From the NCBI RefSeq assembly GCF_040219335.1, contig NZ_JAVJSQ010000029.1, forward strand, positions 372,001 through 436,000: a stretch of DNA of 64,000 bases. Reading direction: 5' to 3'. The translations under genes were made by a program, and so were the position numbers. The notes under the pieces are model-generated. The model did not search any database, was not told the origin of the DNA, and saw only the letters and a list, made by a program, of their open reading frames with translations. Source of the stretch: Gimesia sp. Its GTDB lineage: Bacteria; Planctomycetota; Planctomycetia; Planctomycetales; Planctomycetaceae. Of the stretch, positions 16,884 to 35,455 are shown piece by piece. Numbering within the stretch: position 1 is the stretch's first letter; the number at the start of each line of letters is the position of its first letter.

Positions 16884-18881
16884 TTAAATCCGGTCCAGGC
16901 TGTCGGCCCAGCGACCAATTTCTTCGAGAAATGGTTTCTCAGGATACTCGCCCGGTTGCTGATCATTTTTGATGAGCTGAAACACCGTGGGGTAATTCAT
17001 CTCGCGGATCAGGTCCAGCCGGGGTTGAAGTAGCTGGTTCAATGGATTGTGGGCATTCAGAGCGAAGTACAGGCTCAATGGATAATCCGGGTCAGTTTCC
17101 GGAGGAAGGCTTTTGAGAGACCCTTCGGTGACTGCAACCCCCCGAAACAGTTCTCGATATTTAAATGCGAGATCAAAGGCGAAATCAGCTCCGTCAGCAT
17201 GACTCAGCACGAAGATCCGCGTGGGATCAATGTCATACCGCTGCTGCATCGACTTCACAACCGCCTCTACAAACTCTGTTTCATCCCGGTTCCAGCGAAT
17301 CACATCTTCTGCTGCTGGCCCGACGATGATGATCCCCCGCTGCTCACAGATACTCTTCCATTCATTGAAGATGGTCGATTCCATTGTGTTTCCGGGAGGA
17401 TGAATCCAGACCATCAAACCGTACTCGTAGTCAGGATGATAATTCTCCGGCACATAGGCCCAGTAACTCGAATCACTGCCAGGCAGCTTCTCTTTATAGT
17501 GGCCGACTTTGATCTTCTGTGTTTTATTTTCCTGGGCGGTCCGGGAGGGGATCGCCTGTGTGGAAAGTTCTGCAGGAACGGCATCGGGAGTCTTCTGCAG
17601 TTTGACGTCCAGTTTCACAGGTTTATCGTCACGGGAAATCAGCAGGGATGCCTGGTCTTCAGGACGCAGATGGTTTACCAGAAATGCCAGCATTTCCGCA
17701 CTGGTAACTTTCTGCTGATTGAATTCCAGGATTCGATCTTTGGCTTTCACACCGGCTTTCTCAGCAGCGGAATCGGGAATTACATAACGTATCCCCACAC
17801 CGGTGGTTGTCTGATTCTGAGCCTCTCTGACAGGGAGAATCCCCAGGAAGCCGGATTCGAAGGGTACCAGTTTTTCTGTCAGAGTGGCTTTGAAGGTTAA
17901 CGGTTCTTTGGCTCCTTCACGGGTCACGGTCAGGCTGACTGTGTCGCCTGCGTACAGGCTCATCAGGACCGATTTCACCTCGGAGTGCAATCCCACCGGT
18001 TTGTCGTTCAACTTGATAAGCGTGTCCCCTGCTTTGAGACCCGCTTCCTGTGCAGGACTGCCATAACGGACACGATCCAGATTCATTTCGGTCGAGAGAT
18101 CCCCTTTGCCACTCAGGGTGATTCCCAGCAGCCCGGGATGGAGATCCTTACCGGTATTCAGGCGGGGGATGACTTTCAACACGTCGGTCATGGGGATCGC
18201 AAAACCGATCCCTGAGTCATACCATTCGACTCCTGCCGTCTCTCCTGTTGCACCGGGAGAAAGCGGAACGAGGATGCCCATCAGCCGTCCCTGGATGTCA
18301 ACCAGGGGACCACCATAATTGATGGGAGAAATCTTGGCATCGGTCTGGATCGCCTTCCCCCAGATACGTTCCAGGGCGCTGACAATACCAACCGAGATAC
18401 TGGGCTGATCCAGTTCAAAGGTGCGTCCCAGCGCGATCGACCACATCCCGACCTGCAGATCTTTTTCCGGGACAGCGGTCGGAATCGGCAGATTATCCGC
18501 TTCAATTTTAAGCAGAGTCAGCATCCGCAGATGGTCGGTAGCCACAACGACGGCAGGGAAGCGACGCCCATCGGGCAATGTCACCAGGATTGAGGACGGC
18601 TTGCCGATGAAATTGAAGGCGCTGGAGATAATCAGGCCGTCCCGGCTGACGACGACTCCTGATGTTGGGCCGGTGCCGGTAATCAGCTTTCCTACCCGGT
18701 CCTGTCCGCCTACCGTTTCGATACGTACGATGGATGGGTTCATCAGCGCTGCAGCCTGTTTGAAGGCACGTTCCTCCAGGCTCTCCAGATCAGAGGCAGG
18801 GGCCTGGGCCGGCAGGGGAGAATTCCCCAGACCGCACACGGTCCAGAACAGCAGCAGTGACAGAATTAAATGTCTTCTCAT
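16884..18881 (-). CDS. Degenerate HtrA-like protein with PDZ domains and inactive-looking alpha/beta-hydrolase domain
   Basis: 665 aa: signal peptide (about 1-26), trypsin-like domain (about 35-240), two PDZ domains (about 245-335 and 340-430), and a C-terminal alpha/beta-hydrolase/esterase-like domain (about 455-665). All three protease catalytic positions appear lost by alignment to the usual HtrA motifs: the TNxHVV His is Phe89 (SSAFNF), the DLALLK Asp is Met120, and the GNSGGPL Ser is Tyr189 (INYGGPL). In the C-terminal domain the usual GxSxG nucleophile elbow reads SHADGA at 560-565, with Ala562 at the Ser position. It is therefore probably a binding or scaffold protein rather than an enzyme. 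Last gene of a long minus-strand array, 18 bases downstream of the next pseudo-HtrA gene. Confidence 0.88.
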   Translation of the reverse strand: MRRHLILSLLLFWTVCGLGNSPLPAQAPASDLESLEERAFKQAAALMNPSIVRIETVGGQDRVGKLITGTGPTSGVVVSRDGLIISSAFNFIGKPSSILVTLPDGRRFPAVVVATDHLRMLTLLKIEADNLPIPTAVPEKDLQVGMWSIALGRTFELDQPSISVGIVSALERIWGKAIQTDAKISPINYGGPLVDIQGRLMGILVPLSPGATGETAGVEWYDSGIGFAIPMTDVLKVIPRLNTGKDLHPGLLGITLSGKGDLSTEMNLDRVRYGSPAQEAGLKAGDTLIKLNDKPVGLHSEVKSVLMSLYAGDTVSLTVTREGAKEPLTFKATLTEKLVPFESGFLGILPVREAQNQTTTGVGIRYVIPDSAAEKAGVKAKDRILEFNQQKVTSAEMLAFLVNHLRPEDQASLLISRDDKPVKLDVKLQKTPDAVPAELSTQAIPSRTAQENKTQKIKVGHYKEKLPGSDSSYWAYVPENYHPDYEYGLMVWIHPPGNTMESTIFNEWKSICEQRGIIIVGPAAEDVIRWNRDETEFVEAVVKSMQQRYDIDPTRIFVLSHADGADFAFDLAFKYRELFRGVAVTEGSLKSLPPETDPDYPLSLYFALNAHNPLNQLLQPRLDLIREMNYPTVFQLIKNDQQPGEYPEKPFLEEIGRWADSLDRI

Positions 18882-18899
18882 AACAGGGGTATCACTCTT

Positions 18900-19946
18900 T
18901 TATTTTTTTTCGGGCGGGACCTGGAGTTCAACGGCAACCAGCTGGTTTTCTCTGCGGACGACCAGTCTGACGGTATCACCGGCTTCCAGTTTCCCCAGCT
19001 CTGATTTGAGGGTTTTACAGGACTTGATCAATTCATCGTTTACGAAGACCACCAGATCGTCGGGTTTAAGACCTGCCTCGGCGACCTGGGAACCGGGGAG
19101 AACAGTGTCGATAAAAGCGGGGGTACGAAATAAAACATCGGGGACCATCACCAGGCCAAAATCGATCGGTTTGTAGCGTTCAACGATGGAAGGTTCCGGT
19201 TCATTCTGGTCTTCGCTGGATTCGAATTTGCCGGTCACGATCTGCCTGATGCTTTTGCTTAGTACATCGATGGGCAGGGAATAATTCACCCAGGTATTCG
19301 TCTTGGCGTTACGTACCTGTTTGCCAATCATCCCCAGCAGTTTGCCATCATAGGTCATGATCACCCCGCCAGCAGCTCCGGGGTTATTCGTGATCGCGTC
19401 TACCACGTATACATCACCCGTATAAGACAGCTCGAAGGCGCCTCTCCGCCGGGGCAGATCGGTGCGGGCTTCAATGACGCCGTGCAGCACGGAGACCGGT
19501 TCGTCTCCCGTAGCGACACGAAACATGTTGCTGAAACCCAGGATCCGTGTGCCTGCGCCTGCGGTCGCTTTTTCTTCATAATTGAAGTAAGGCAGATTCA
19601 GGTCACGTTCGGATTTGAGTTTAATAATCGCCAGATCCAGGTGAGGTTCGGCTCCGAGAACTTCCGCTTCAAAACGTCTCCCGTCGTGCAGTACGACAGA
19701 CAACTGGTCCGTATCCAGCACCGGGCTCCAGATCGTGGCAATATGACCTTCTGGAGAAACCAGAAAACCGGAACTGTAGCCGTATAGATTTTTAACTCCC
19801 CCCGCCCCAAAAATTTTGACCAGGCGTGGCAGGGCATACTGAATCGTCTCGCGCGAAGAGGCATCCAACCTGTGCATGGGAACCAACAGTACTCCCAACA
19901 GACAGATACAGATCAGGATCGGTTTAATTAATTTAGCTTGATTCAC
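18900..19946 (-). CDS. Degenerate HtrA/trypsin-like protein with one PDZ domain
   Basis: 348 aa with a signal peptide or anchor (about 8-29), a trypsin-like domain to about residue 240 and one C-terminal PDZ domain (GSQVAEAGLKPDDLVVFVND). The Asp of the triad is kept (Asp104 in HLDLAIIKL). The His position is Ser74 (TIWSPV where TNxHVV is usual) and the Ser position is Ala192 (NPGAAGGV where NPGNSGGP is usual). I expect no proteolysis but retained fold and PDZ ligand binding. The intact HtrA-type protease gene lies 29 bases upstream on the same strand, and the other degenerate protein follows, so the three are probably made together. Length is about that of a DegS-type protein. Confidence 0.88.
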   Translation of the reverse strand: MNQAKLIKPILICICLLGVLLVPMHRLDASSRETIQYALPRLVKIFGAGGVKNLYGYSSGFLVSPEGHIATIWSPVLDTDQLSVVLHDGRRFEAEVLGAEPHLDLAIIKLKSERDLNLPYFNYEEKATAGAGTRILGFSNMFRVATGDEPVSVLHGVIEARTDLPRRRGAFELSYTGDVYVVDAITNNPGAAGGVIMTYDGKLLGMIGKQVRNAKTNTWVNYSLPIDVLSKSIRQIVTGKFESSEDQNEPEPSIVERYKPIDFGLVMVPDVLFRTPAFIDTVLPGSQVAEAGLKPDDLVVFVNDELIKSCKTLKSELGKLEAGDTVRLVVRRENQLVAVELQVPPEKK

Positions 19947-19975
19947 AGAGTATTTACTTTCATCACGAAAGGATG

Positions 19976-21733
19976 CTATTTCCCGCTGGCGTCCGTGGTT
20001 TCCAGTTTCAGCCGATCAATTTTCAATTTCATGACAGGACGGTTTTCATACTGGACATCAAGCTCACCCGGAAATTTCTGTCCGTTGAGCGTGCGAAACT
20101 GTTCAAAGCGGATTGAACAGGGTTCTGAATTCTCCGTCAGGTAGAAATCACATCCACGCAGTGAAAGGTCCGACTTGTTGAAATACCAGCGGGAGATGGT
20201 GCCGGTTTGTGTGGCTACCATAACGTCGACCATCTCGTTCTTCCCATCCAGGGGTTCGCTGCCCAGATAATAGAAATCCGTAAAACGATCTGTCTGTCCG
20301 GAGAGTAAGAGACGGAAGTGATGCAAGGCTGCCAGCAGTCCGCCTGTTCCTGGAGGCTCGTCGACAGGCATCCCTGTTTCCAGTGATTGCAGGAAGACAT
20401 CATTACCCGATTCCAGGCCGATCCCTTTATCAGCCAGCGTGAGTGTGAAGTCTGCTCCGTTATCCAGCTTCCCGATCAACGTCCAGTTGCCTTTGCGATC
20501 AGCGAAGTTACTGTGAGCGTGCAGCGCCTGTAACAGACGCTCCTGTTGCTTTTGATTGAAGTAATAATTGGTAAAACCGGTTTTGGGAACATACAGATGT
20601 TTGTACTGTTCCGGCGGTGCAGGGGGAGCGGGATGTCCATGAGGCATGGGGATCGGCATCTTCGGCTGTTTGGGATCCTCGTCGTCCGGTTTTTCCTCGG
20701 GGAGCATCTTGGGGGAACTTACATGTTCCTGGAGTTCCGCAGCCGTGTGCAGTGGCTGCAGACGGACGTAAATTTTCGTTTTCTGCTCATCTCGACGATA
20801 GACCAGAGGCAATGTCCAGCCTGCAGGGTAAATCCCCAGGATGTTCTTGAATTGATTCACACTGCGGATCGGGCGACCGGCGAAGGAGACAATCTCATCT
20901 CCGAGCCTCAGCCCTTTGCGATACGCGTCTGAGTCCTCCAGAATCTCAGCCACATCCACTTTGGCATCAAAACCGGTCGCCACGGTGGCTCCCAGCGACG
21001 CGTGGTCGACAATTCGGCCGCTCTTGAGATGATCCCAGAAGTGTTTGATCTGATTGATCGATATCGCGTAGCCTGCTCCCGAATTGACGCGTCCCCGCTT
21101 TTCAAACGAGCCACGGCCATTGATGCCGATCAACTCACCCTGGTCATTGAACAGGGGGCCGCCCGAGTTTCCGGGGTTGATGGATGAGTCTACCTGGATA
21201 CAGTCGGTGTATTCCAGGAATGTTCCAGCCGGGTACTGGTAGCGATGTACGCCGCTCACAATCCCATAGGTAATGGTCGGTTGGAAATCGGTTGCCAGCA
21301 GGAACGGGTTACCCATCGCGTAGGCCCAGTCACCCACCTGAACTGTGTCGCTGTTCCCCAGTTTCGCGACGGGAAAATCATTACGGCCCAGCAGTTTGAT
21401 CAAAGCCACATCCCCGGTCGGGTCAATGGAGACAATGACAGCGTCATACAGCTTGCCGTCATTCAGTCCACACTTCATGAAGTTACCCGCACCGGAAACG
21501 ACATGGAAGTTGGTCAGCGCGTAGCCATCAGGAGTGACGAGCACACCCGAGCCACCTCCATCACCAGCACCACCGAAGATGGCAACCACTGAAGGTGAGA
21601 CTACTTTGATGACATCAATTCGCTGCTTCTGGGCAGCCAGTACAGCTGGATCTACATTCGAAGTGTCAGCTGACGCGGGAGCCTGGCAGAGCAGGCCGAT
21701 GATCAACAGCGCACAGACAAAAACGTTCTGCAT
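19976..21733 (-). CDS. HtrA-type serine protease with PDZ and extra C-terminal domain
   Basis: 585 aa secreted or periplasmic S1C protease. Signal peptide at about 1-22. The complete triad is visible: His77 in TNFHVV, Asp108 in GDVALIKL, Ser190 in NPGNSGGPL. One PDZ domain follows (ASLGATV to about 330). A Pro-rich linker (PKMPIPMPHGHPAPPAPPEQ) leads to an approximately 200-residue C-terminal domain that I do not recognise. That domain includes phrases such as GNWTLIGKLDNGADF and resembles lipoprotein-carrier-like beta folds only loosely. This is the only member of the local HtrA trio with a plausible active site. The NPCBM gene is 69 bases upstream on the same strand. Confidence 0.92.
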   Translation of the reverse strand: MQNVFVCALLIIGLLCQAPASADTSNVDPAVLAAQKQRIDVIKVVSPSVVAIFGGAGDGGGSGVLVTPDGYALTNFHVVSGAGNFMKCGLNDGKLYDAVIVSIDPTGDVALIKLLGRNDFPVAKLGNSDTVQVGDWAYAMGNPFLLATDFQPTITYGIVSGVHRYQYPAGTFLEYTDCIQVDSSINPGNSGGPLFNDQGELIGINGRGSFEKRGRVNSGAGYAISINQIKHFWDHLKSGRIVDHASLGATVATGFDAKVDVAEILEDSDAYRKGLRLGDEIVSFAGRPIRSVNQFKNILGIYPAGWTLPLVYRRDEQKTKIYVRLQPLHTAAELQEHVSSPKMLPEEKPDDEDPKQPKMPIPMPHGHPAPPAPPEQYKHLYVPKTGFTNYYFNQKQQERLLQALHAHSNFADRKGNWTLIGKLDNGADFTLTLADKGIGLESGNDVFLQSLETGMPVDEPPGTGGLLAALHHFRLLLSGQTDRFTDFYYLGSEPLDGKNEMVDVMVATQTGTISRWYFNKSDLSLRGCDFYLTENSEPCSIRFEQFRTLNGQKFPGELDVQYENRPVMKLKIDRLKLETTDASGK

Positions 21734-21802: not shown

Positions 21803-22969
21803 TTATTTAATCAGGCGGGCATTACACAGATCCAGGTGATCGCAGATCTCCAGGTTGTCTCCAAAATCAACCAGGATCTCCAGGTCACGGACGCCACTGA
21901 CATCCAGATCTAAATCGACAGGTGAGTCAGAACTTTTCACGTTGCCGGCGAAGAGCGTACGGCCATTGCCTTTAATTTCCACATATACAAAACCGATACC
22001 AGGGACCGAGTCATCAATTCCCATCACAGCCCGGAAACGGCGGTAATCGTCTTTGAGTCGATACTGCAGCAGGGTTTTGGAATGAATATAGAGTCCCCGT
22101 GAGTATTCTTTGCCACCCACACGCAGCGGTCCTCCATCGCGATGTTTGTCACGGCGATACTTCCAGACGGTGTCGAAGAAGGGCGTGTATTCAATGTTGC
22201 GTGGTTCCAGATCGGACAGGTAACGTACCTTTCCCTGGCTGAAATCCAGATTCGCGATTACCGAAGGAGAAAGCCTGGTGCGGGCGCCTGTCTGCAGAGT
22301 GGCTTGGAAAAATGTCCCATTATAAGAAATCGCTGAAGCCTGCAGGGTGCCTTCGTCGGTCAGCTTGACTGAACAGAAGGGGGTTGTCTCTGCCGTCGCT
22401 GGACGAGCGTAAATAATACCGAAGACCCGCTGACGATTCACGGGGACTTCATCTTCACCGGCAAAGAACTGAATCCGGTCAGCGGAGATGTTGCCGACAA
22501 CACCATCAATGTAGTCGAGCACATTTTCTTTCTGGACGACCAGCAGATCCTTATTGTTTTTGCCGTTGAGTAGTTTGTCCCATGATTTCTCAAGATCGGA
22601 ATTCAGGGCTCCGAAGCGAACGGATGTGACCGCTTTGGTAGGAACAGTCAGGCTTCCCGTCTGCTCCCCCTGCAGAACAGTCTCCCGATCATTGCTCTTC
22701 AAATCCTGAATCGGAAAGCGGGAACCATCAGCCAGCCGCACCATTAGAGGAGATTCGAGTGTGCGTTGAAAGCGATTCTGAGTGAACCGGACATTCAACA
22801 CACCTGAGAGAGGATACTGTCGATCATCCTGCCCCTGCTTCAGCTGGATTGTACCCTGGTTCAATGACTGCAACTGACCAGAAACGCTTGTTCCCGTCAG
22901 AGAGGTCACTTCGACTTCGGGGGAGGCTGCCAGCAGCATGGTCATGGTGGCACAAAACAGGGAATGCAT
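21803..22969 (-). CDS. Secreted NPCBM-domain protein
   Basis: 388 aa. A short signal peptide (HSLFCATMTMLLAAS) is followed by a beta-rich N-terminal half. The C-terminal part, from about residue 270, matches the NPCBM (novel putative carbohydrate-binding module) pattern: SRGLYIHSKTLLQYRL, then VMGIDDSV, GNGRTLFAG, and DLEILVDFGD near the end. Such modules are usually attached to glycoside hydrolases, but no catalytic domain is visible here, so it may bind glycan or another envelope ligand. GGAG stands eight bases upstream of the ATG. It is co-directional with the HtrA genes downstream and the helical secreted protein gene upstream. Confidence 0.85.
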   Translation of the reverse strand: MHSLFCATMTMLLAASPEVEVTSLTGTSVSGQLQSLNQGTIQLKQGQDDRQYPLSGVLNVRFTQNRFQRTLESPLMVRLADGSRFPIQDLKSNDRETVLQGEQTGSLTVPTKAVTSVRFGALNSDLEKSWDKLLNGKNNKDLLVVQKENVLDYIDGVVGNISADRIQFFAGEDEVPVNRQRVFGIIYARPATAETTPFCSVKLTDEGTLQASAISYNGTFFQATLQTGARTRLSPSVIANLDFSQGKVRYLSDLEPRNIEYTPFFDTVWKYRRDKHRDGGPLRVGGKEYSRGLYIHSKTLLQYRLKDDYRRFRAVMGIDDSVPGIGFVYVEIKGNGRTLFAGNVKSSDSPVDLDLDVSGVRDLEILVDFGDNLEICDHLDLCNARLIK

Positions 22970-23024: not shown

Positions 23025-24167
23025 TTATTTGCCGGAACTCGCTTTCTCGGTCGCCAGCTTTTTAAAGTACTTTTCGATCGCCTTCCGATAGTGGGAAGGG
23101 AAGTTACGGTTAATGATATTTTTGGCCGAAGCCTGTTTCTTGGGAGGCAGTGTTCCCCAGCCTCCATTATTCGACAGCTTCTTCTTATCGACCTCGCCGG
23201 GGGCTGTAGACCCTTTGACGCGGCTTTCATCTGCGCCCTGCTCAGGAGAACCGGAACTGCTGGAACCCGAACCGGAAGAGGGGCTGTTCTTGGACTGGTC
23301 TTCCATTTTCTTGATCATCTTGTCGAGTGCCGCGATGATTTCGTCTTCAACTTTCTGAGTGTCTTTTCCCGACTTACCCAGATCAAGACGTCGCTCAACA
23401 TCGCTCATCTTACGGGAAATTTCATCAAGACTGTCTTCTTTAAGCGATGTAAGATCTGCCTGCATCAGTGTGGCCAGCTGTCGATAGCGTTCAGGGATTT
23501 CCTGAGTCCGATCAAGCAGTTGTGTCAGTGTCTTTTCACAAGCTTCTTTCTGCAGGAGATGATGCTCGCAGACCGCTTTGTAAAACAGGTATCCGGCTGG
23601 ATCGACCAGTTGGACGGGTTGGATGGTATTGAAAATGACCAGTGCCTGATCAACCATGCGATACTGCGTCAGGTTGCGGGCGACGTAGTATCGCAGATTG
23701 GCGAGATAGAATTGATCGGCTTTGCCCTCTACTAGAAGTGGTTGATTGGAAAACACCGGGTACTGATCCGACAGCTGATAGGCGCGGGCCACTTCACGGG
23801 CTTCCGGTTTCACTTCGGCAAAGACCTGCATGGTCAGATTCAGTTTGTCTTCCGCATTCAGGCTGGGATCCAGTTTGGCCAGCAGGGATGCGACCCGCTT
23901 TAACAGTTCCGGATCTTTGGCTTTCTGTTCGACGGTCCAGGTCTCCAGCTGAATTTTCAGATCGACGGCTGATGGAGCCGCGTAGAGTACCGTCTTTTCT
24001 TCTTCAGCCGGTTTCTGCGCTTTCGTTTCCAACGGAAGGGCGTCTTTCTCTGAAATCTGCCCATACACCGTCAGGGCAGGACCGTTCCACAGGAGCAGCA
24101 GAACGCATACTTTGAGCAGATTTCTGATGCCGCTTTGATTCTGACAGTTGAGTAACTGCTGTTTCAT
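23025..24167 (-). CDS. Secreted helical protein of unknown function
   Basis: 380 aa. Hydrophobic signal sequence at about residues 17-36 (LLKVCVLLLLWNGPALTVYGQ). The middle is mainly helical and TPR-like in texture (AYQLSDQYPVF, ANLRYYVARNL, YLFYKAVCEHHLL), and a charged coiled-coil-like segment follows. A Ser/Gly-rich linker comes next, then a short basic C-terminal motif (FPSHYRKAIEKYFKKLA). That ending occurs in planctomycete proteins of similar layout as far as I recall, without a known function. It lies between the Gln-rich coiled-coil gene and the NPCBM gene, 36 and 55 bases from them, and is probably part of the same transcript. Confidence 0.8.
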   Translation of the reverse strand: MKQQLLNCQNQSGIRNLLKVCVLLLLWNGPALTVYGQISEKDALPLETKAQKPAEEEKTVLYAAPSAVDLKIQLETWTVEQKAKDPELLKRVASLLAKLDPSLNAEDKLNLTMQVFAEVKPEAREVARAYQLSDQYPVFSNQPLLVEGKADQFYLANLRYYVARNLTQYRMVDQALVIFNTIQPVQLVDPAGYLFYKAVCEHHLLQKEACEKTLTQLLDRTQEIPERYRQLATLMQADLTSLKEDSLDEISRKMSDVERRLDLGKSGKDTQKVEDEIIAALDKMIKKMEDQSKNSPSSGSGSSSSGSPEQGADESRVKGSTAPGEVDKKKLSNNGGWGTLPPKKQASAKNIINRNFPSHYRKAIEKYFKKLATEKASSGK

Positions 24168-24203
24168 CTTGGTCTGTTACCTTTGTGTAAAACAGGTACG
24201 CTG

Positions 24204-25967
24204 CTATTTGTTTTTTCCGGTGGCCAGAATGTAGGTGGCATTCTGGATGCGTGTCTGTCGATCCGCCAGATTCTGCAACTGTTCCAGCAGGTCAGCACGA
24301 TTGGCATCCTTTTCCTGGGCCAGTTTTTCGATGCGGCGGGTTCGGTTATTCACTCGTAGCTGCATGGAACGGAGCATCTTGATCTCAGCCAGCATGTCGA
24401 CCAGGGATTTATCTTTGGGAGAGCCCTGTTGTTGCTGCTGTTGCTGTTTCTTCTCGTCTTCCGATTTCTCCATCTCTTTCTGCAGCGCTTCGATCATTTC
24501 TTCCAGCGTGCTGATTATGTCCTGCTCGATTTCCTGTGTCAGGGTACCGACTTTAGTCTGGTTGAGCCGATACGAGACCGACTGCACATCTTCCCGCACC
24601 TCAGTCAGAGCTTCGCCAAAGGCGACAGAAGAACCTTCGTCTTTGATCATCAGAATCGCTTTATCAACTTCGGTCCCGATCATGGTCTCTTCACGCGATA
24701 ACTGTACCGCTCTTGCGGTATGACGGCTGTTGCGTTCTTTTTCTGGTACCTGGTCGATCGACAGGGTGCCGGCATAGACACGTTTCTGCTGTGCGAGAAT
24801 CTTCTGCAATCGGGCCTCCATGGCAGCCAGCTTCAATTCGCGTTCTTCTTCGCGTAACTGACGCAGCATCTCTTCCAGCTTCTCTTTGGCCTCTGTCAGT
24901 TTACGAATCGCTTCGTCCTGATGTTTTGAAGCGTTTTCCTTCTGTTGCTTCTTCAGTTCTTCAATCGCTTTTTCCATCTCCTGACGGGCTTTTTCCAGTT
25001 CTTCGCGTCCCGGAGTTTTCTGCTGTTGCTGCTGGTTCTCTGACTGCGGAGACTGTTGCTGTTGCCCCTGCTGGGACTGCTGCTGTTGCTGCGATTGTTG
25101 CTGTTGAGACTGCTGCTGTTGCTGTTGTTGAGACTGCTCTCCCTGTTGAGGAGACTTTTCCTGGGGAGAGCCTTTCTGACTCTGGTCTGATTTCCCTTGT
25201 TGGGGAGATTTATTCTGAGATTTGGAATCCTGAGACTGATTCGATTTTTGATCAGACTTTGATTCGGGCTTGCCTTCTTTCGGGTCAGATTCTTTCTGCT
25301 CTCCTGATGGCTTCTGATCCGAATCTTTCTGTTCCTGATCGTTTTTATTTTCAGACTGCTGTGAGTTCTTATTCTTCTCTGCATCCTGCTGGTCGATCTT
25401 CGCCTCCAGCTTTTTGGCGTTATCAGCGGTCTTCTGCTGTTTATCCTGGAGGTCAGCCGGGTTCCCCCCGCGTTCCGTTGCCGCTCTGACATCCCGTTCC
25501 TGGCCGATCAACCGGTTTACATCTTTAAGCAGATTCTGCAGCCGTTCTTTTTCTTTCTCCACTTCGCTCATGCGGTCTTCGCTTTGAAGCAGTGCGAGCA
25601 GGGCCTGCATGTTTTGAAGCAGGTTTTCCTGCCGTTCGACCGCTTCGCCCAGCTGTCCGTCCTGCAGCATCTGCAGGACCCTCTGCATTTCGACCGTCAT
25701 CTGGTTCTGCTTACTCTGACCAAACGCACGAAACAGCAGGTCGGCCCGGGCAGGGTCAGTCTTTTTCATGTACTCGCCCAGATCGTGCAGAGTCGATTCA
25801 AATCGTTTGAACTGCTGGGAGATGGCTTCTTGTTTGTCAGAGAGATCCCGTTTCCCATTTGCGGTCCCAGAGTCTGCGGCATTATCCTGAGCGAAGGTGT
25901 AAGGGGCACAAAACAGAACGCCTGTGATCGCGAACAGCAGGCAGGCGATGCGGGGGCGATTCAACAT
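24204..25967 (-). CDS. Secreted Gln-rich coiled-coil protein
   Basis: 587 aa with the start chosen at the ATG at 25967, which has AGGAG about eight bases upstream and is followed at once by a signal peptide (LNRPRIACLLFAITGVLFCAP...). An in-frame start at 26075 would add 36 residues without a ribosome-binding site. After the signal come long heptad-type helices, a Lys/Gln/Ser/Asp-rich stretch, an almost pure Gln/Ser tract, more coiled coil (EKAIEELKKQQKENA) and a conserved-looking C-terminal helical end. No enzyme domain is visible. Length may vary between strains because of the repeat. A structural or partner-binding role next to the VWA/MoxR genes is inference. Confidence 0.85.
   Translation of the reverse strand: MLNRPRIACLLFAITGVLFCAPYTFAQDNAADSGTANGKRDLSDKQEAISQQFKRFESTLHDLGEYMKKTDPARADLLFRAFGQSKQNQMTVEMQRVLQMLQDGQLGEAVERQENLLQNMQALLALLQSEDRMSEVEKEKERLQNLLKDVNRLIGQERDVRAATERGGNPADLQDKQQKTADNAKKLEAKIDQQDAEKNKNSQQSENKNDQEQKDSDQKPSGEQKESDPKEGKPESKSDQKSNQSQDSKSQNKSPQQGKSDQSQKGSPQEKSPQQGEQSQQQQQQQSQQQQSQQQQQSQQGQQQQSPQSENQQQQQKTPGREELEKARQEMEKAIEELKKQQKENASKHQDEAIRKLTEAKEKLEEMLRQLREEERELKLAAMEARLQKILAQQKRVYAGTLSIDQVPEKERNSRHTARAVQLSREETMIGTEVDKAILMIKDEGSSVAFGEALTEVREDVQSVSYRLNQTKVGTLTQEIEQDIISTLEEMIEALQKEMEKSEDEKKQQQQQQQGSPKDKSLVDMLAEIKMLRSMQLRVNNRTRRIEKLAQEKDANRADLLEQLQNLADRQTRIQNATYILATGKNK
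25020..25136. repeat. CAG/CAA-type Gln/Ser codon repeat inside the coiled-coil gene
   Basis: On the plus strand the tract reads as runs of CTG/TTG triplets; on the coding strand it is CAG/CAA with occasional TCC/TCT, giving runs of up to seven Gln broken by Ser. A second, shorter Gln run is encoded near 24428-24448. Such triplet tracts are prone to length change and also create open frames in the other reading frames. Confidence 0.85.
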
Positions 25968-26125
25968 AAGAAGTGCTCCTGACAGAAAATTCATATCGAA
26001 CTCAGAACCGATAGGGAGGGAATACGTAAGGGCTGTGTCTTTCTCAACATAATGAGCGCGCTGAGAAGAAAGCACAGCAATTTATTATATCATGTCGGGG
26101 ACCATGTTCGAAGCATGTTTTTGTG

Positions 26126-26164
26126 TTCAGTCAAAAGCGGGTTGAAAATCGTATTTTGACTGAA
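26126..26164. repeat. Perfect 11-bp inverted repeat between operon genes
   Basis: TTCAGTCAAAA at 26126-26136 and its exact complement TTTTGACTGAA at 26154-26164, with a 17-base loop. It lies about 20 bases beyond the stop of the DUF4175-like gene on the transcribed (minus) strand. There is no T-run after it, so it is not a standard intrinsic terminator. It could be an RNA-processing, stability or attenuation hairpin. Confidence 0.6.
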
Positions 26165-26182
26165 ACGCGGATTGGCGACAGA

Positions 26183-28657
26183 TTATTCCAGTCCCAACCC
26201 TTTGAGACGATCGAGCAGCTTGTTTTTGCGATATTTTTTTGTCTCTTCGGTTAATTCTTTTTCGCGTTCAATCAGATTCTTCAGCATTTCAATGGCTTCG
26301 TGAAACTCCAGCAGGTCCTGCATTTCATCAAGGACACTCTGCATCCGATTCAGCATGGCATTCAAAAGTTCAATACTGGTCTGCATTTCCGGTAACGGGT
26401 CGTTTTGTTTCTCGATGGCCAGTCGGAGCAGTCCCAGGTGTTGATCGACCTCTGGGAAGTCCTGCTCGTGGATCATAGTCAGGGGGCTGAGAATTTTGTC
26501 GTCAATCCGGCCCAGAATCTGTGCTGTGGCGACTCCGTTGTTCACCAGTTCTTCGCGGATGTCATGAAATGATTCTACGATCGACGCCGTTTCTGTCGCA
26601 TTCTTACGACTCCCATACAAACTGCGGTCGGCTGAAACTGCGACCGCCGTCTGGATTTCCAGCAGCGTGTCATTCCATTTGGGATCGCTTTGTCCCTGCT
26701 TTTGTTTCGCTTTGATCGATTCTGCCTGCTTGAGTTGTTCGATACGCTCGCTCAGTTCATCGCGCGTCTGTGTGACTTCTTTGAAGATTTGTTCGAAGCG
26801 TTTCCGCAGGTTGAGTTCCTTGGAATAGAGCTGGGAGAGCAACTCTTCGTCGGTAACAATTTCAAAGTGATAGGTTTCGCCATGCACCTGATGCGGACCG
26901 CTCAGATTGTCTGCATCTTCCGCATGGACGGTGAGGCTGATTTTCTGACCGACTTTCAGATCCAACGGGAGAACTTCAAAGCGTTCCCACTCCTCCCGGT
27001 CATTCCGCTGCAGGGTGAATTCCCGGGGGCGTTCACTTGGTTTCTTGCGGAACGGCCGGGGGCGGAAGTTTTTATCTTCATCGACCAGGAAATCAAATCG
27101 TGCTGCCTGAATACCGTAATCATCGGTAATGGTTCCCTGTACCGGAATCATGGCCTTACGGGTAATCGATTTGCCAATTCCTTTGAGCTGCGTATCAATT
27201 TGGGGTGGTTGATCGACAATTCCGTTGATGCTCAAACGGATCGGCTCGGTTACCAGCAGCCCGTCTGCATCCTCCAGATAAATCCGGATCGGTTCGTCCG
27301 CCATGAGTGGAATGCGGGCAGGCAGAGAGCCACTCTGGGCCTCAGACTGAGGTTTACTTTCACTGATCAGCGTGAAGGGAATCTGGAACTGTAACTGGTC
27401 TGACCCACACATCTGTGACAGTTGGGGGCCCGTGATCTCAACCTGCGTGACAATTTCTCCCTGAGGGTTTTTCCAGGCCAGATAACTCTCGGTCTGGCTA
27501 TTTTCCTGCGGTGTTTCGAGTTGCAGTTTGAGACGATCTGTTTCGAACAGGTATCGGGTGATCGGTTTATTGGCGCTTGAGATCAGATCAAACTCAGTAT
27601 TTACAGGGATCGAAATCTGAGTGCCCTGTACGGCCAGAAGATCGGGGACTGGTTTGCCCGAAGCCGGCTCAACCTGGTTCAGGCCCATATAGGGCGGGTA
27701 CACACATGAGAGTTGAATCTGGTCCAGCACGGGATTTTCCACAATCTCAATAGTGTAAGGCTCGGGATTGGTATAATCATTCCCCGACACCCAAACCTGA
27801 ATGTCTTCCAGCAGATCGGTAATCGTGTGTTTAAAACGGCCTTCTCCCATACGGGACATCACAGTCCGGCCGCCTCCCCGTCCACTTTGCATCCGATAAG
27901 TCAGTTGGACGCGTTCGGGAGCCTGCTTTCCATCTGCCGTTTCCACCAGCAGGGTCAGATCGTTACCCAGCCCGTGTTTGTAGACTTGATTCTGAAAATC
28001 TTTGACCCGGTCACCAGGCTGTGCGATGACTTTAACCACCAGTCCCGTCTCTCGATTCCAGTAATCGGTTTTTAGCTCGAGGTAACCCTTGGCCCAGCGG
28101 GCCATTGCCGGTTGATTGAACACCGCCAGCGTCAGGATCGAAATACACAGGGCCAGCGCACAAAGAAAGGCACGCCGCAGCGGACGTTTGTCAAACACAT
28201 CTTCCAGCGGGAGCTGTCTGCTGCCCTCGGCGACCTCATGCACGGTCCGTTCCAGCATCGCACGGGTCAGGGCATTCTGTGGTTCTTGGGTCTCGTGCAG
28301 TTCAATCGCGGTCGCCAGCCGGTCATTCAGTTCGGGGAAGCGTCGCTCCAGCACCAGTGCGAGTGCTTTGCGGCGCATTTTTTTCATCAGGCGAAAGAGC
28401 AGCAGACTGACCGCCAGCATGAGAATTGCCGAAACGGAAATCAGGACCAGCGAGGCACGAAACCAGACCGGCAGTTCAAAATGGCTCAGCTGAAAGTAAC
28501 CCCAGTCAACCAGGAAGCTGGCCCAGAAGATCAGACCGATCACTGCCAGCAGCCGGGCAACTCCTTCCAACAGAATGTATCTGCGGATTTTCCCACGCAA
28601 CCGATTGAGGAGATCGGTGATTTCCTGGGGGAGCGTGATTTTTGATGGTTCATTCAT
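26183..28657 (-). CDS. DUF4175-like membrane protein
   Basis: 824 aa. Two membrane helices near the N-terminus (about 36-52 and 66-88) are followed by a cytoplasmic segment (ALALVLERRFPELNDRLATAIEL) and a third helix near 165-180. A large extracytoplasmic beta-rich region and a long helical, charged C-terminus (ELNLRKRFEQIFKEVTQTRDEL) complete it. The pattern of N-terminal helices with ERRFPxLxDRL resembles DUF4175-type proteins found beside MoxR/VWA genes; this is from memory and not certain. The upstream VWA gene ends 75 bases before it on the same strand. Function unknown; likely an envelope component of the same system. Confidence 0.8.
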   Translation of the reverse strand: MNEPSKITLPQEITDLLNRLRGKIRRYILLEGVARLLAVIGLIFWASFLVDWGYFQLSHFELPVWFRASLVLISVSAILMLAVSLLLFRLMKKMRRKALALVLERRFPELNDRLATAIELHETQEPQNALTRAMLERTVHEVAEGSRQLPLEDVFDKRPLRRAFLCALALCISILTLAVFNQPAMARWAKGYLELKTDYWNRETGLVVKVIAQPGDRVKDFQNQVYKHGLGNDLTLLVETADGKQAPERVQLTYRMQSGRGGGRTVMSRMGEGRFKHTITDLLEDIQVWVSGNDYTNPEPYTIEIVENPVLDQIQLSCVYPPYMGLNQVEPASGKPVPDLLAVQGTQISIPVNTEFDLISSANKPITRYLFETDRLKLQLETPQENSQTESYLAWKNPQGEIVTQVEITGPQLSQMCGSDQLQFQIPFTLISESKPQSEAQSGSLPARIPLMADEPIRIYLEDADGLLVTEPIRLSINGIVDQPPQIDTQLKGIGKSITRKAMIPVQGTITDDYGIQAARFDFLVDEDKNFRPRPFRKKPSERPREFTLQRNDREEWERFEVLPLDLKVGQKISLTVHAEDADNLSGPHQVHGETYHFEIVTDEELLSQLYSKELNLRKRFEQIFKEVTQTRDELSERIEQLKQAESIKAKQKQGQSDPKWNDTLLEIQTAVAVSADRSLYGSRKNATETASIVESFHDIREELVNNGVATAQILGRIDDKILSPLTMIHEQDFPEVDQHLGLLRLAIEKQNDPLPEMQTSIELLNAMLNRMQSVLDEMQDLLEFHEAIEMLKNLIEREKELTEETKKYRKNKLLDRLKGLGLE

Positions 28658-28731
28658 AGGTCTGCTTTACAATCATTTGGGACGTCGATTGATGTGCCGG
28701 AGTTCCCTGAAATTCTTTCCATTACTGATTA

Positions 28732-31191
28732 TCATGATAATTTAAACAGTTTTCGTGTCAGCCACTCCGTCGCCAGCAGGCCTGCTAACAGGAAGAAGAC
28801 CCAGGCCTGATCCCAGAGGGTTCTCAAGCGTTCGTCGATCAAAAACTCTTCACCCTGGTCGGGCAGCAGTGCGGGAATTGTTTCCGCTTCTTCCAGTGCA
28901 AGATACGCACCGCCCGTATCGCGGGCCAGTTCCTTGAGGCCTTTGACATTCTGGCTCAGTGATTCATCCTCCAGTCGGGGCAGCAGGACATTCAGACTGC
29001 CTTCGACGGCCTGTCCCTTGGAATTTGGAACGGTCACATTGAAACGATACTTCCCGGGCAGGCTGGCTCGGAAGCTGGCCGTGTATTCCCCCGGACGGTT
29101 CCGGTCCTGCATTAAGAGCAGATTGGGTACCAGAGGGCGTCCGCGTGGATCAATGACTTCCATTGGCACCGATTCCTGAACCAGCGGCTGGAATTCCGGA
29201 TCCAGCAGTCGAACCCGTACCGAGACGGTCTGTCCCAGAACGTATTCATCCCGTTCGAGAATCAGGGTCCCCCGCTTCGTACCCCGTCGAGTACGTCCCT
29301 GTCCGACATTGCGGATCAGTTTGGTCCAGAAGCGGTCATAATAATCTTCATCAACGGATCGGAGACGCCACATTTCGGGACTGCCGAGGTAGAAGCAGCG
29401 GCCTTCACCGAAATACTGCGAAGCCATCAGAATCGAAAAACCGTGTTCGGTTTGCGTTTTGGGATCGGGGAAATGAGCATAGACTGTCGCCGCAGCTTTG
29501 GCTCCGTTAGAGGGATAACAGCGATACAGCCCCGGGAATGTTTCCCAGAGCTCTTTCGAGGTCGCCGGATCGTCGGTCAGCATGAGGAAACCGGCATCCA
29601 GTCCCGCTTGTGTCCATTCGATGCGGCGAATCTGTGTCGCTTCCTGATCGAGATAATCCCTTACAAAGGAATTAATGAAGACTGGGTACAGATCGAGAAT
29701 CGACTGATACTTGTCACTTTCCAGTGACATTTTAGGGGTATAGACATCACCGGCAACCAGCACGATGCCACCGCCCCCGGAGGAGACCCACTCATTCAGA
29801 TTCAGCATCTGTTCTTCGGATAACAGGCTCCAGTTCACATCGAAGGCCAGCACGACGTCATATTCAAACAGGTCAGCTCGTTCGGGAAATTCATACAGCA
29901 ACTGGTCTGCATCTTGTGAGACACCCGGGGGAGCAGATTGCAGCCAGACATCTGACTTGATGGAGGGGTGGCGGTAAAGCATTGTACGGGCGAAGCGGTA
30001 ATCCCGCATCGGACCACCTGCGATCACCAGGACCCGAGTCGGACGGCTGAAGACATTCACTGTGTGTTCCAGTTCGTTGTCCATCGCGTTCGCATCCTGG
30101 GCCAGCTGATTGCCGCGCACCCGGATTGCGTAGGTGATTTCTCCCTCTTCGGCGGGCGTCCGTTCAAATTTGACATCCAGAGGCAGACCGTCTTCTGTCG
30201 GCAATAGAATGTCGCGAGACTCAATCACCGTTGGTTCTGCATCTCCCGGCAGCTTTTTCAGCAACTCCAGTGTGATATTTTTTCCTGGCATTCCGACCGC
30301 CTGCAGCAGAGCGGTGATTTCAAAGGCATCACCGAACTGTACATCGGTGGGAGCGATGATTTTTGAAACCTGCAGGTTAGCCGGTCGTGTCGGGCTGCCG
30401 ACCCCGAGAGTAATCAGACGAACTTTGGCTTCCTTTGCTGCTTCGTTGGCAGAGAGTAAATCAGTGCCTGCATTAGAGGCACCATCGGTGGCCACGATAA
30501 TTCCCGACAGCGTTGAACCATTGATTTCGCGGATCAGTTGCCCCAGTTGTTCCCCCAGTCTCGTTTCGAGCCCTTGAGGTTGCAGCAGAGTGCTCCAGTC
30601 AACTTTAGTATCCGTCTCTGTGGATGTAGTATCAGCTGATTCTTCAGTATTGGAAGTTTTGTCTTGTAACTCACGCTGGAAGACATGGTGTGGCCCTTTC
30701 AGGGCCTGGTCGAACGTGTAGACACTGACCTGGTGACTCTTCTGCAGGTCTGCGATCAGAGGAGAATCCGCGAGCAGTTTTTCTATGGCTTCCATCCGAC
30801 TGGGGACGTTTCGACTGGCAGGGGAACTTGCATTTGCAGAGACTAGCTCATTCGGGTGCCTCATGGAGAGTGATGTATCGACCAGCACCGCAACCCGGGA
30901 TGGGCGGAACGACATTTTCTGTGTGCGTTCATGCGGGTTGAATACGATGACAATCAATGCAATCAGCACCGCCAGACGCAACCCGGTCAACCAGCACCGC
31001 CAGAACACGGGCAGCTGAAACGAATCTTTCCAGATGGTGCGAATCGACAGGACCAGTACCAGTGCCAGCCCCCCCAACAGTAGCAGCCAGCCCCAGCCGG
31101 TATCGGGCGTATCGTATTCGATCGAACGAAACGCCGTGGTTTCGTCGGCAGCCAGCATCATGAATTGGGAGACAGAGCTCAGTAGGTTCAT
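28732..31191 (-). CDS. Membrane VWA protein with GATase-like region
   Basis: 819 aa. Membrane helices at about 33-50 and 67-85, then a VWA domain beginning VAVLVDTSLSMR, whose D105-x-S107-x-S109 is a complete MIDAS start, with IIVATDGASNAGT further on. A middle part resembles the class I glutamine amidotransferase-like fold seen in related proteins (LNEWVSSGGGGIVLVAGD) but no catalytic Cys is apparent. Beta-sandwich segments follow, and a C-terminal helix (WVFFLLAGLLATEWLTRKL) anchors the end. So most of the protein sits outside the inner membrane. Its ATG overlaps the BatA gene's stop by four bases, indicating coupled translation. Confidence 0.87.
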   Translation of the reverse strand: MNLLSSVSQFMMLAADETTAFRSIEYDTPDTGWGWLLLLGGLALVLVLSIRTIWKDSFQLPVFWRCWLTGLRLAVLIALIVIVFNPHERTQKMSFRPSRVAVLVDTSLSMRHPNELVSANASSPASRNVPSRMEAIEKLLADSPLIADLQKSHQVSVYTFDQALKGPHHVFQRELQDKTSNTEESADTTSTETDTKVDWSTLLQPQGLETRLGEQLGQLIREINGSTLSGIIVATDGASNAGTDLLSANEAAKEAKVRLITLGVGSPTRPANLQVSKIIAPTDVQFGDAFEITALLQAVGMPGKNITLELLKKLPGDAEPTVIESRDILLPTEDGLPLDVKFERTPAEEGEITYAIRVRGNQLAQDANAMDNELEHTVNVFSRPTRVLVIAGGPMRDYRFARTMLYRHPSIKSDVWLQSAPPGVSQDADQLLYEFPERADLFEYDVVLAFDVNWSLLSEEQMLNLNEWVSSGGGGIVLVAGDVYTPKMSLESDKYQSILDLYPVFINSFVRDYLDQEATQIRRIEWTQAGLDAGFLMLTDDPATSKELWETFPGLYRCYPSNGAKAAATVYAHFPDPKTQTEHGFSILMASQYFGEGRCFYLGSPEMWRLRSVDEDYYDRFWTKLIRNVGQGRTRRGTKRGTLILERDEYVLGQTVSVRVRLLDPEFQPLVQESVPMEVIDPRGRPLVPNLLLMQDRNRPGEYTASFRASLPGKYRFNVTVPNSKGQAVEGSLNVLLPRLEDESLSQNVKGLKELARDTGGAYLALEEAETIPALLPDQGEEFLIDERLRTLWDQAWVFFLLAGLLATEWLTRKLFKLS

Positions 31192-33455
31192 GCGGCAACG
31201 CTCGCAGTCTGGGGATGGTAGCTCAGGCGGTAAGCCAGCAGCTGTTCACAGAGCAATAGTATAAACAGGATGATCAGAATCGTGTTGGTGATTTCCCGCC
31301 CCGCTTCCTGACCCTGAATCCACTGGAATTCACCGGGTTCCTGAATCTGAATTGAGGGCGAGTTTCCTAGCTCGGCTGTGAGTTCATCTGTCGTCGCCAG
31401 TTCCAGATTGCTTTCGGTGACAGGGAAATTGAACGCATACATCTGGGATTCAACAGTCTGGTCCTGACGCTTCAGCTGTACTGTGTAGACACCCGGCTGG
31501 TCGGTCTCGCGAAAAGTCGTAATCAGTTTCAGGTCACCTGAGTTACTCGCGTCACTGTCCTGTTGGGGAGTGGCTTTGAGTCGTACGGTCCGTCCGCCGG
31601 CGGTCACGGGTGTTTGGATTTCTACTTCATCGGTGTAGGCGGCTGCATCCAGTGAGAAGGCGATCGGATCCCCGGATGTCTCAGCCTGCTCGTGGGAGCG
31701 AGACTGGACCAGGTATTTCTGCAGTTCCAACTGGAAGACGATATAACTTGGATTCAGCGCCCAGGAATTCCAGGGCTCTCCCTGGCTGGTCTGGACAGGA
31801 CCGGCAGAAGTCAGACAGGTAATAATGCGTCCTTTCCCCAGTCGGTGTTCCAGGATCAGCGGATCCTGATTTCTCAGCTTGGCGATGATGCTGACTCCCG
31901 AAGCGGCGGCAGCCTTGTTTTGCAGCCACTGGGCAGAAATCGGGAAGTAACGCATGATCGACACCGCTTCGATCAGGGGATTGTCCTGACCTGCGAAAAC
32001 GGAAAACAGCGGATGGTCACCGACCTCCAGGTCGACCAGGGTATTCGAGTCACGTGCAGGCAGGTCACGAGGCGCAATTTCCAGCGGCGCCGGGAACAGT
32101 CCGTTCCCTTCCTTGTAAAGTTTGTCGTTGTAAAACGCAGGCTGGACCGAAGGACCTGCGAACCAGATCAGGCCGCCCCCGTTTTTGACGAAAGTCTCCA
32201 GGGCATCAATTGCATCGAGAGGCAACTCGGCCACATTGAGCAGGTAGATATTCTTAAACTGATTCAATGGGTGTCTGCGCAGGTAGTCGACATTTTCGAC
32301 CGAGGGCGCAAATCCTGTGATGGCGGCGTCGGGAGCAATCGCGGTCTGGACGTACATCCATTCGTTGCCGGAAGGATTCCCGTCCACAATCAGAACTGGA
32401 TTTGACTGCTTGACGTTGATGGACAGAAAACGTTCGTTGTCGCTGTCGAGTGCATCGTTACTCAGACTGACATTAATCTGATGCAGATTCGGTTTATTGA
32501 ACACGACATCAAAATCCTGGGAGACTTCGCTGCCGGCTTCAATCTTGTCAAATACAATGCTCATCGGCAGTTTGTTCTGATCCACGAAAGCCGAGACGCG
32601 GACATCTTGAGCCACCTTGTCACCAAAGTTTTTAACGCTGACACGTAAGCGGAGCGGGACATCGACGGCTGCGACCTCCGTAGCGCCCGAGAGTTCCGTA
32701 ATCGCCAGGTTGGGCTGTGAGTCCGGAACTGTTTTGACCAGATTGACCGTAGTATCGTTGCTGCTCAACTTTTCGATCGTCGCTGCGACCGATTTTTTCT
32801 CCTGCCAGTCTGCTTTACGGAAGTCGGAAATCAGGTGCAGGGTTTTAATCACCGCCCGGTCTTCATTCAGCAGATCCGCGGCCGCTTCCAGACCCTGATT
32901 CAGGTCCAGGCTCTGATGGGAACAGGTGAGATTTCCGAGCTTGGCATCGAGTTCGTTGATCAGCTCCTCGTTGATGTCACGTTGCAGGAACAGTGGCGCG
33001 TCCGCGCGGGAGAGCAGGATCAGAGAGAATTTTTCGGTGTTGGGACGACTCGTCCCCTCCGCGGCAATTTTACGGACGACCTGCAGTCCTTCCTGAAACG
33101 CCGACTGCTCACCCCAGACATTGCGCATAGAGCCGCTGTCGTCGAGTACGATCACGTGATGCGACTTGGCTCCTTGAAACATCGAGAGCTGATCCGGATC
33201 GAGAATCAGCCGCGCAATCAGCAGCAGCAGACAGACGATTAACAGGATCCGCAGCAGCAGAAGCAGCAGTTGTTCCAGAAGCACCCGCCGCTGGTTGGTC
33301 TGCTGGCTTTGCAGCAGGAATTCCATGGCGGCAAATCGGACGCGTTTATACTGGAAGCGGTTAATCAGATGGATAATGATCGGCGCAGCGACCATCGCGA
33401 CACCGGTATAGACCAGTGCTGAATTCACAAAATGTTGTGTTAACCAGGCTTCCAT
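31188..33455 (-). CDS. BatA-type membrane protein with VWA domain
   Basis: 755 aa. The N-terminus matches the aerotolerance regulator (BatA) N-terminal domain: a helix, then APIIIHLINRFQYKRVRFAAMEFLL, and a second helix at about 60-85. A VWA domain follows with MIDAS D105-x-S107-x-S109 in VLDDSGSMR. A long beta-rich region and a final membrane helix near the C-terminus (ITNTILIILFILLLCEQLLAYRL) complete it. Such proteins usually sit beside MoxR and DUF58 genes, as here, and are thought to be acted on by the MoxR ATPase. A small gap of 46 bases separates it from the DUF58 gene. Confidence 0.9.
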   Translation of the reverse strand: MEAWLTQHFVNSALVYTGVAMVAAPIIIHLINRFQYKRVRFAAMEFLLQSQQTNQRRVLLEQLLLLLLRILLIVCLLLLIARLILDPDQLSMFQGAKSHHVIVLDDSGSMRNVWGEQSAFQEGLQVVRKIAAEGTSRPNTEKFSLILLSRADAPLFLQRDINEELINELDAKLGNLTCSHQSLDLNQGLEAAADLLNEDRAVIKTLHLISDFRKADWQEKKSVAATIEKLSSNDTTVNLVKTVPDSQPNLAITELSGATEVAAVDVPLRLRVSVKNFGDKVAQDVRVSAFVDQNKLPMSIVFDKIEAGSEVSQDFDVVFNKPNLHQINVSLSNDALDSDNERFLSINVKQSNPVLIVDGNPSGNEWMYVQTAIAPDAAITGFAPSVENVDYLRRHPLNQFKNIYLLNVAELPLDAIDALETFVKNGGGLIWFAGPSVQPAFYNDKLYKEGNGLFPAPLEIAPRDLPARDSNTLVDLEVGDHPLFSVFAGQDNPLIEAVSIMRYFPISAQWLQNKAAAASGVSIIAKLRNQDPLILEHRLGKGRIITCLTSAGPVQTSQGEPWNSWALNPSYIVFQLELQKYLVQSRSHEQAETSGDPIAFSLDAAAYTDEVEIQTPVTAGGRTVRLKATPQQDSDASNSGDLKLITTFRETDQPGVYTVQLKRQDQTVESQMYAFNFPVTESNLELATTDELTAELGNSPSIQIQEPGEFQWIQGQEAGREITNTILIILFILLLCEQLLAYRLSYHPQTASVAA

Positions 33456-34378: not shown

Positions 34379-35455
<1,077 letters not shown>

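Follow-up and report, generated by a model that had tools for sequence, protein, structure and literature searches.

The usual picture of an HtrA protease is that of a homotrimer. Mixed rings of active and inactive paralogues are represented by ClpP/ClpR, a protease assembly of another fold and family. Within the HtrA family, a 2016 review describes, in its accessible part, plant Deg5/Deg8 as the sole hetero-oligomers known, assembled from homotrimers (PMC4877387), and the accessible part of another study reports that MamO promotes MamE-dependent proteolysis without a catalytic triad of its own (PMC4794232). Here we analysed three adjacent HtrA genes in a stretch of 64,000 nucleotides from a Gimesia-like planctomycete (assembly GCF_040219335.1, contig NZ_JAVJSQ010000029.1, positions 372,001 to 436,000; hereafter the window). 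The active gene, which is transcribed first, is called P1 throughout, and its two dead paralogues P2 and P3; "class" refers to the planctomycete class of the window genome. We consider it somewhat probable that this trio makes up one machine, a hetero-oligomeric envelope HtrA in which one catalytic subunit would assemble with two non-catalytic ones.

Like DegP, DegQ and DegS of E. coli (Do/HtrA), the proteins of the trio combine a leader, a trypsin domain and PDZ domains, and the P3 model matches HtrA structures. In contrast to these proteases, the locus holds three fixed paralogues, two of which lack catalytic residues, and all three score below the NCBIfam cut-off for the Do subfamily (P1, 220.6 bits; P2, 91.2 bits; P3, 207.6 bits; cut-off, 416.2 bits). 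Judged by its score, P1 is an HtrA relative and not a canonical Do protease. MamE and MamO likewise are an active and a dead HtrA whose genes share a genomic island, and the dead member promotes proteolysis without catalysis; as far as the accessible text goes, they differ from the trio in having one dead partner per active protease, in the need for the TauE domain of MamO for MamE activation, and in a Thr at the Ser position of MamO (PMC4794232). P1 and P2 reached 63.2 and 40.5 bits against the NCBIfam MamO cut-off of 800 bits, and MamO was not among the best 25 of the 29 family matches of the window P3. Arabidopsis Deg5/Deg8 resembles the proposed complex as a 1:1 hetero-oligomer of HtrA paralogues; in contrast to it, Deg5/Deg8 is described in the accessible text as built from homotrimers, and it acts in photosystem II repair in a plant (PMC4877387). 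A description of the trio was not found in the open-access literature, as judged from titles and the starts of abstracts among the matches listed, with subscription papers and preprints outside the scope.

The three genes are intact and co-directional on the minus strand in the order P1, P2, P3, with intergenic gaps of 29 bp (P1/P2) and 18 bp (P2/P3), and each matches Pfam Trypsin_2 (P1, 6.5e-33; P2, 6.9e-16; P3, 1.3e-19). An earlier note on this DNA had given their coordinates, strand and nine triad-position residues, all of which we found as claimed:

19976..21733, minus strand: P1, active HtrA, 585 amino acids (aa), with a signal peptide (judged by eye), a trypsin domain, a PDZ domain and a C-terminal domain of about 200 aa
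21503..21505, minus strand: codon of P1 His77
21410..21412, minus strand: codon of P1 Asp108
21164..21166, minus strand: codon of P1 Ser190
18900..19946, minus strand: P2, predicted catalytically dead HtrA, 348 aa, GTG start, with a trypsin domain and one PDZ domain
19725..19727, minus strand: P2 Ser74, at the His position
19635..19637, minus strand: P2 Asp104, at the Asp position
19371..19373, minus strand: P2 Ala192, at the Ser position
16884..18881, minus strand: P3, predicted catalytically dead HtrA, 665 aa, with a trypsin domain, two PDZ domains and a hydrolase-like domain
18615..18617, minus strand: P3 Phe89, at the His position
18522..18524, minus strand: P3 Met120, at the Asp position
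18315..18317, minus strand: P3 Tyr189, at the Ser position

Conservation was counted in class rows from 119 loci, mostly one per species, which include near-identical Gimesia and metagenome-assembled genome rows and some genomes with two loci; L064-L066, L071 and L072 (same contigs as other loci) and L074 and L075 (not orthologues) were omitted beforehand. P1 carries His/Asp/Ser in all 102 class rows, one L104 fragment being without these columns, and at 20 of 20 loci outside the class (domain matches in two pieces in L187 and L199), and should be proteolytically active. P2 showed no triad in any of its 101 class rows. Its His position is never His (Ser in 85, Asn in 10, Gly in 4, Thr in 2), its Asp position holds Asp in 56, Glu in 28 and other residues in the rest, and its Ser position holds Ala in 77, Gly in 16, Pro in 3, His in 2, and Ser, Thr and Asn in one each. 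The fused row L129 was left out of these counts; its apparent His/Asp/Ser belongs to the P1 half of the fused open reading frame (ORF), and its P2 half is also without catalytic residues. Outside the class, none of 20 P2 homologues has a triad: one row has the His, none has the Asp or the Ser at its position, and the letters at the Ser position are Q, Y, P, F and E.

In the 114 class rows of P3, the His position is never His (Phe in 98, Tyr in 9, Ala in 3, Leu in 2, Glu and Trp in one each) and the Asp position never Asp (Met in 74, Lys in 11, Gln in 8, others in the remainder). The Ser position is Tyr in 113 rows and Val in one, and Tyr in all 20 homologues outside the class. The surrounding pocket is near-fixed as well, with Ser185 in 114/114 rows and Asn188, like Tyr189, in 113/114. 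A profile alignment to DegP, a check suggested by the earlier note, placed Tyr189 on the catalytic Ser; misalignment of the triad was excluded, as the flanks align to DegP. The random substitutions and frameshifts that would have refuted the note's reading do not apply to P3, whose Tyr is near-invariant; at the Ser position of P2 the letters vary, yet no P2 triad occurred. From these alignments, we infer that P2 and P3 lack proteolytic activity.

The trio, which the same note proposed to seek in other planctomycete genomes, was found both inside and outside the class. It stands in order on one strand at 99 of the 119 loci (97 plain ones, L104, in which P1 is divided between two frames, and L129, in which P1 and P2 are fused), P3 stands alone at 17 loci (6 with less than 3 kb of upstream sequence), and P1-P2 alone at 3. 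Therefore, P3 can be unlinked while P1 and P2 remain joined. P3 was present in 242 of 297 class genomes (E 1e-70). Twenty of the 55 P3-negative genomes were tested: P1 was absent from all of them (1e-70; two positive controls matched) and P2 from 19 (1e-35), the exception being G036. Since 16 of these 20 belong to one family (f2), they represent few independent absences, and the assembly of G277 is fragmented and 88% complete. A search for P2 in 14 genomes, 8 with P3 apart from P1-P2 in the fetched stretch (in one case truncated by the end of the contig) and another 6 of genus g40, found it in all 14. Among 294 genomes sampled from the phylum, 46 had P2 (1e-45), 26 of them outside the class, and in the 20 of these 26 genomes that were examined P1, P2 and P3 lay together and in order without exception.

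Furthermore, five genomes of genus g136 (14 listed) carry P1 and P2 as a single ORF of 929-966 aa, in which the active half is followed by the dead half with no P2 leader between them, and P3 comes next. Single P1-P2 ORFs also occur outside the class, in families f102 (two), f59 and f55 (L185, L188, L186, L189), which brings the total to nine genomes from four families. Adjacent genes that have fused classically point to a functional, often physical, coupling. Assembly error is hard to invoke for fusions in nine genomes of four families, though many of the assemblies are fragmented.

Median ratios of nonsynonymous to synonymous substitution (dN/dS) in Gimesia pairs with dS of 0.05-1 were 0.036 for P1, 0.050 for P2 and 0.058 for P3, and 0.016, 0.022 and 0.018, respectively, for the trypsin domain alone (12-18 pairs each in both cases). 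In a tree of 77 rows (24 P1, 24 P2, 24 P3 and 5 other HtrA proteins of the window genome), each paralogue was separated from all other rows by a branch with 100% bootstrap support. The three paralogues therefore predate the radiation of the class as sampled, and the loci outside the class, which were not in the tree, suggest that they are older still. That the dead states are under selection and not the product of decay is strongly supported by these comparisons.

The accessible part of PMC11642142 describes how in DegS Arg178 of the L3 loop of one subunit touches the LD loop of the next (trans-activation), and gives Thr176, Ser183, Arg187 and Gln200 as the analogous cluster of DegP. P1 and P3 resemble DegP and DegS in keeping the Ser/Arg/Gln of this activation network:

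18345..18380, minus strand: P3 network remnant Ser168, Arg172 and Gln179, corresponding to DegP Ser183, Arg187 and Gln200

The equivalences were taken from the DegP alignment and from counting from its catalytic Ser. In P3 the three residues are invariant in 114/114 class rows and 20/20 rows outside (134/134), and in P1 in 102/102 class rows. P3 thus seems to have lost cutting and kept most of the part that switches a neighbour, which in our view is the strongest mechanistic hint.

Active and dead HtrA genes are paired elsewhere in the window genome. Of its 16 Trypsin_2 domains, 13 keep His/Asp/Ser; the three exceptions, namely P2, P3 and another protein, all sit in gene clusters with an intact HtrA. 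This clustering is more than expected by chance. The second site (contig C40, about 311560-313805; L164, L171, L200) has an intact HtrA adjoining a dead HtrA of 367 aa, in which a PDZ domain is inserted in the trypsin domain and the triad positions hold Ser/Asp/Cys. These three residues recur in 27/27 homologues detected among 40 genomes; the neighbour was identified at 24 of the 27 loci and has His/Asp/Ser at each of them. With this second conserved pair, the pairing of active and dead HtrA proteins thus recurs in the group.

The earlier note had described the frames and PDZ domains as intact; it had overlooked that P3 carries two PDZ domains and a hydrolase-like C-terminal domain. Beyond their trypsin domains, the three proteins contain:

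20744..21004, minus strand: P1 PDZ domain, about residues 244-330
19979..20578, minus strand: P1 C-terminal domain of unknown family, about residues 386-585
18912..19181, minus strand: P2 PDZ domain, about residues 256-345
17592..18149, minus strand: P3 PDZ1 and PDZ2, about residues 245-430
16887..17519, minus strand: P3 alpha/beta-hydrolase-like domain of the polyhydroxyalkanoate-depolymerase/esterase type, about 210 aa, about residues 455-665
17196..17198, minus strand: P3 Ala562 at the esterase nucleophile position, aligned with the Ser of the 3wyd GHS motif
16887..16910, minus strand: P3 C-terminal tail WADSLDRI, a possible PDZ ligand

PDZ_2 matched 22 of 25 P1 members at E 0.05, with the window P1 itself below the Pfam cut-off; the fold of its PDZ matched those of DegS/HtrA (Z about 12, root-mean-square deviation (rmsd) 1.8-2.0 over 85-89 residues in the top three rows). 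These fold-match rows mainly cover the PDZ domain, and the catalytic domain was not interpreted in the P1 model, which is poor (mean predicted local distance difference test (pLDDT) 46.8). In the same model the C-terminal domain is beta-rich; its only family match, to DUF4292, was sub-threshold and confined to 3 of 25 members. The P3 model, of moderate quality (mean pLDDT 70.3), matched HtrA structures with Z up to 23.1 (rmsd 4.3, 278 aligned); pLDDT falls below 50 at residues 174-188, so that the model carries no information on the Tyr189 pocket. The carboxylate-loop Gly of the PDZ is kept in 102/102 rows of P2, and in 113/114 and 103/103 rows for the two PDZ domains of P3. The aromatic position of the GNPF segment, which has a role in the HtrA trimer, is Phe or Tyr in 101/101 class rows of P2 (L129 excluded) and 19/20 outside; it is kept in 100/102 rows of P1 and partly in P3 (F/Y/W in 90/114).

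The hydrolase-like domain of P3 gave a match to NF050058 (E 8.2e-13) that falls short of the cut-off of this family and is shared by 22 of 27 members, and a match to the esterase of PDB 3wyd (E 1.2e-5); the domain was not detected in P3 of the 20 loci outside the class. The window P3 has Ala562 in place of a GHS-type nucleophile Ser, which only 7 of 102 homologues have; P3 therefore resembles a pair of dead enzymes joined in a single chain. Its C-terminus is exactly LDR followed by I/L/V/F in 81 of 100 complete long rows and ends in I/L/V/F in 93 of 100, rows that are not independent as many are from Gimesia. P1 and P2 rows end mostly in K, P, E or R, and none of 11 short P3 rows has an LDR-type end. 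This tail is compatible with a PDZ ligand and could also be a structural end of the hydrolase domain. Some genomes carry a second copy of the whole trio (L142, L153 and L155, in G157, G276 and G273, respectively), whose P3 is short and without the hydrolase domain.

We propose that the trio works as a single envelope protease system with divided labour. P1 would be the catalytic HtrA, and P2 and P3 ancient pseudoprotease paralogues that join it in a hetero-oligomer, proposed because the building block of HtrA is a trimer. P3 would act as a non-catalytic allosteric subunit whose PDZ domains sense ligands and whose L3 loop (Ser168/Arg172/Gln179) signals to the adjoining P1 subunit, in the way that a DegS subunit acts on its neighbour in trans, and P2 would be a non-catalytic partner of P1 with a PDZ of its own. 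From the inactivity of P2 and P3 through assembly, stoichiometry and direction of signalling to envelope location, this scheme is one that we infer. The partnership with the active protease suggested by the earlier note gained indirect support from the P1-P2 fusions, the gene order and the invariant Ser/Arg/Gln of P3; mixed oligomers or a presentation of PDZ ligands to the protease, as the note also had it, would be candidate forms of this partnership. More tentative is the specific arrangement of a 1:1:1 P1:P2:P3 trimer whose only active site would be gated by ligand sensing in the dead subunits and signalled to by the L3 loop of P3, in which the LDR-hydrophobic tail of P3 would serve as a built-in PDZ ligand.

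Several observations weigh against a joint complex. P3 is unlinked from P1-P2 at 11 loci whose upstream sequence extends for 4.9 kb or more, fusions involving P3 were absent from the loci examined, and G036 has P2 without P1 or P3 at the thresholds used. The Thr176 position of the network is not kept in P3 (Ser in 56, Asn in 45, Ala in 6, plus others; n=114), and outside the class P1 keeps the Ser183 and Arg187 equivalents in only 18/20 and 19/20 loci, respectively (Gln, 20/20). P2 is without the Ser/Arg/Gln residues at the aligned positions; a near-invariant Arg pair lies close to them (86/101 and 89/101), its equivalence being unclear, and P2 may not signal in the manner of DegS. Finally, a physical interaction of MamE with MamO was not detected, according to the accessible part of PMC4794232.

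Some of these observations would fit P2 and P3 as independent PDZ adaptors or chaperones, whose own homotrimers bind envelope clients and pass them to P1 or protect them, with no shared oligomer. The carboxylate-loop Gly kept in P2 and both P3 PDZ domains, the unlinking of P3 in some genomes, and the pseudo-esterase domain of P3 (in the class), which could bind ligands, all speak for such a role. However, the P1-P2 fusions force a 1:1 coupling of P1 and P2, and the invariant Ser/Arg/Gln of P3 would be of no evident use in a pure adaptor; we regard this explanation as rather unlikely. Repurposing in the manner of MamO, in which the former active sites would bind a new ligand (a metal or a small molecule) in a role unrelated to proteolysis by P1, has MamO itself as a precedent and accounts for a P3 pocket that is specifically conserved (Ser185, Asn188, Tyr189) and not relaxed, but is made improbable by the fusions and by the co-absence of these genes with P1. 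Unconventional catalysis by P2 or P3 could draw on the near-invariance of Tyr189 of P3; against it, His and Asp never occur at their respective positions in 114 P3 rows, and the Ser position of P2 varies (A, G, P, H and others in the class; Q, Y, P, F and E outside), so that it appears very improbable. Decay of P2 and P3 into pseudogenes, to which the loss of catalytic residues might point and which the earlier note had rightly dismissed, is scarcely credible and was rejected given the intact frames, the co-inheritance, a dN/dS of about 0.05 in Gimesia and the conservation inside and outside the class.

P1, P2 and P3 end a run of 11 co-directional genes. The genes that precede the trio are:

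21803..22969, minus strand: NPCBM-domain protein, 388 aa, which also precedes the trio at 13 of 20 loci outside the class
23025..35467, minus strand: remainder of the run, encoding 380-aa, 623-aa and 824-aa proteins, a VWA protein, a BatA-type VWA protein, a DUF58 protein and a MoxR ATPase

The MoxR, DUF58 and BatA-type VWA genes stand together, as in a Bat/MoxR-VWA operon. An identical 11-gene order was found in a further 12 congeneric genomes with long loci (L031-L039, L041, L043, L044) and in other genera (L047, L050, L051); at L045 the MoxR part is on the opposite strand. The 824-, 623- and 380-aa proteins match no Pfam family above the cut-off, and their order is kept in other genera. Relatives of the 824-aa protein are present also where the trio was not found; such operons are therefore more widespread than the trio. 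A link of the trio to the MoxR/VWA operon is putative. HtrA and MoxR do not occur in the accessible portion of the main text of the P. limnophila essential-gene paper (PMC10632474). On the other side, a 2223-aa ORF (window 10206-16877) is convergent with P3, has no Pfam match at 0.01, and adjoins P3 by its end in most Gimesia loci. Promoter-like (14 vs 11.8, standard deviation 3.3) and terminator-like (27 vs 19.6, standard deviation 3.9) counts were not used as evidence.

With an active HtrA and two dead paralogues retained both within the class and beyond it, control of an HtrA by pseudoproteases would become testable by simple co-expression. The trio would also provide an entry point to an envelope operon, as yet uncharacterised, that encodes MoxR and VWA proteins. 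Furthermore, P3, which seems to have retained some of the allosteric network and lost the cutting site, may be a natural separation-of-function protein for HtrA activation in trans.

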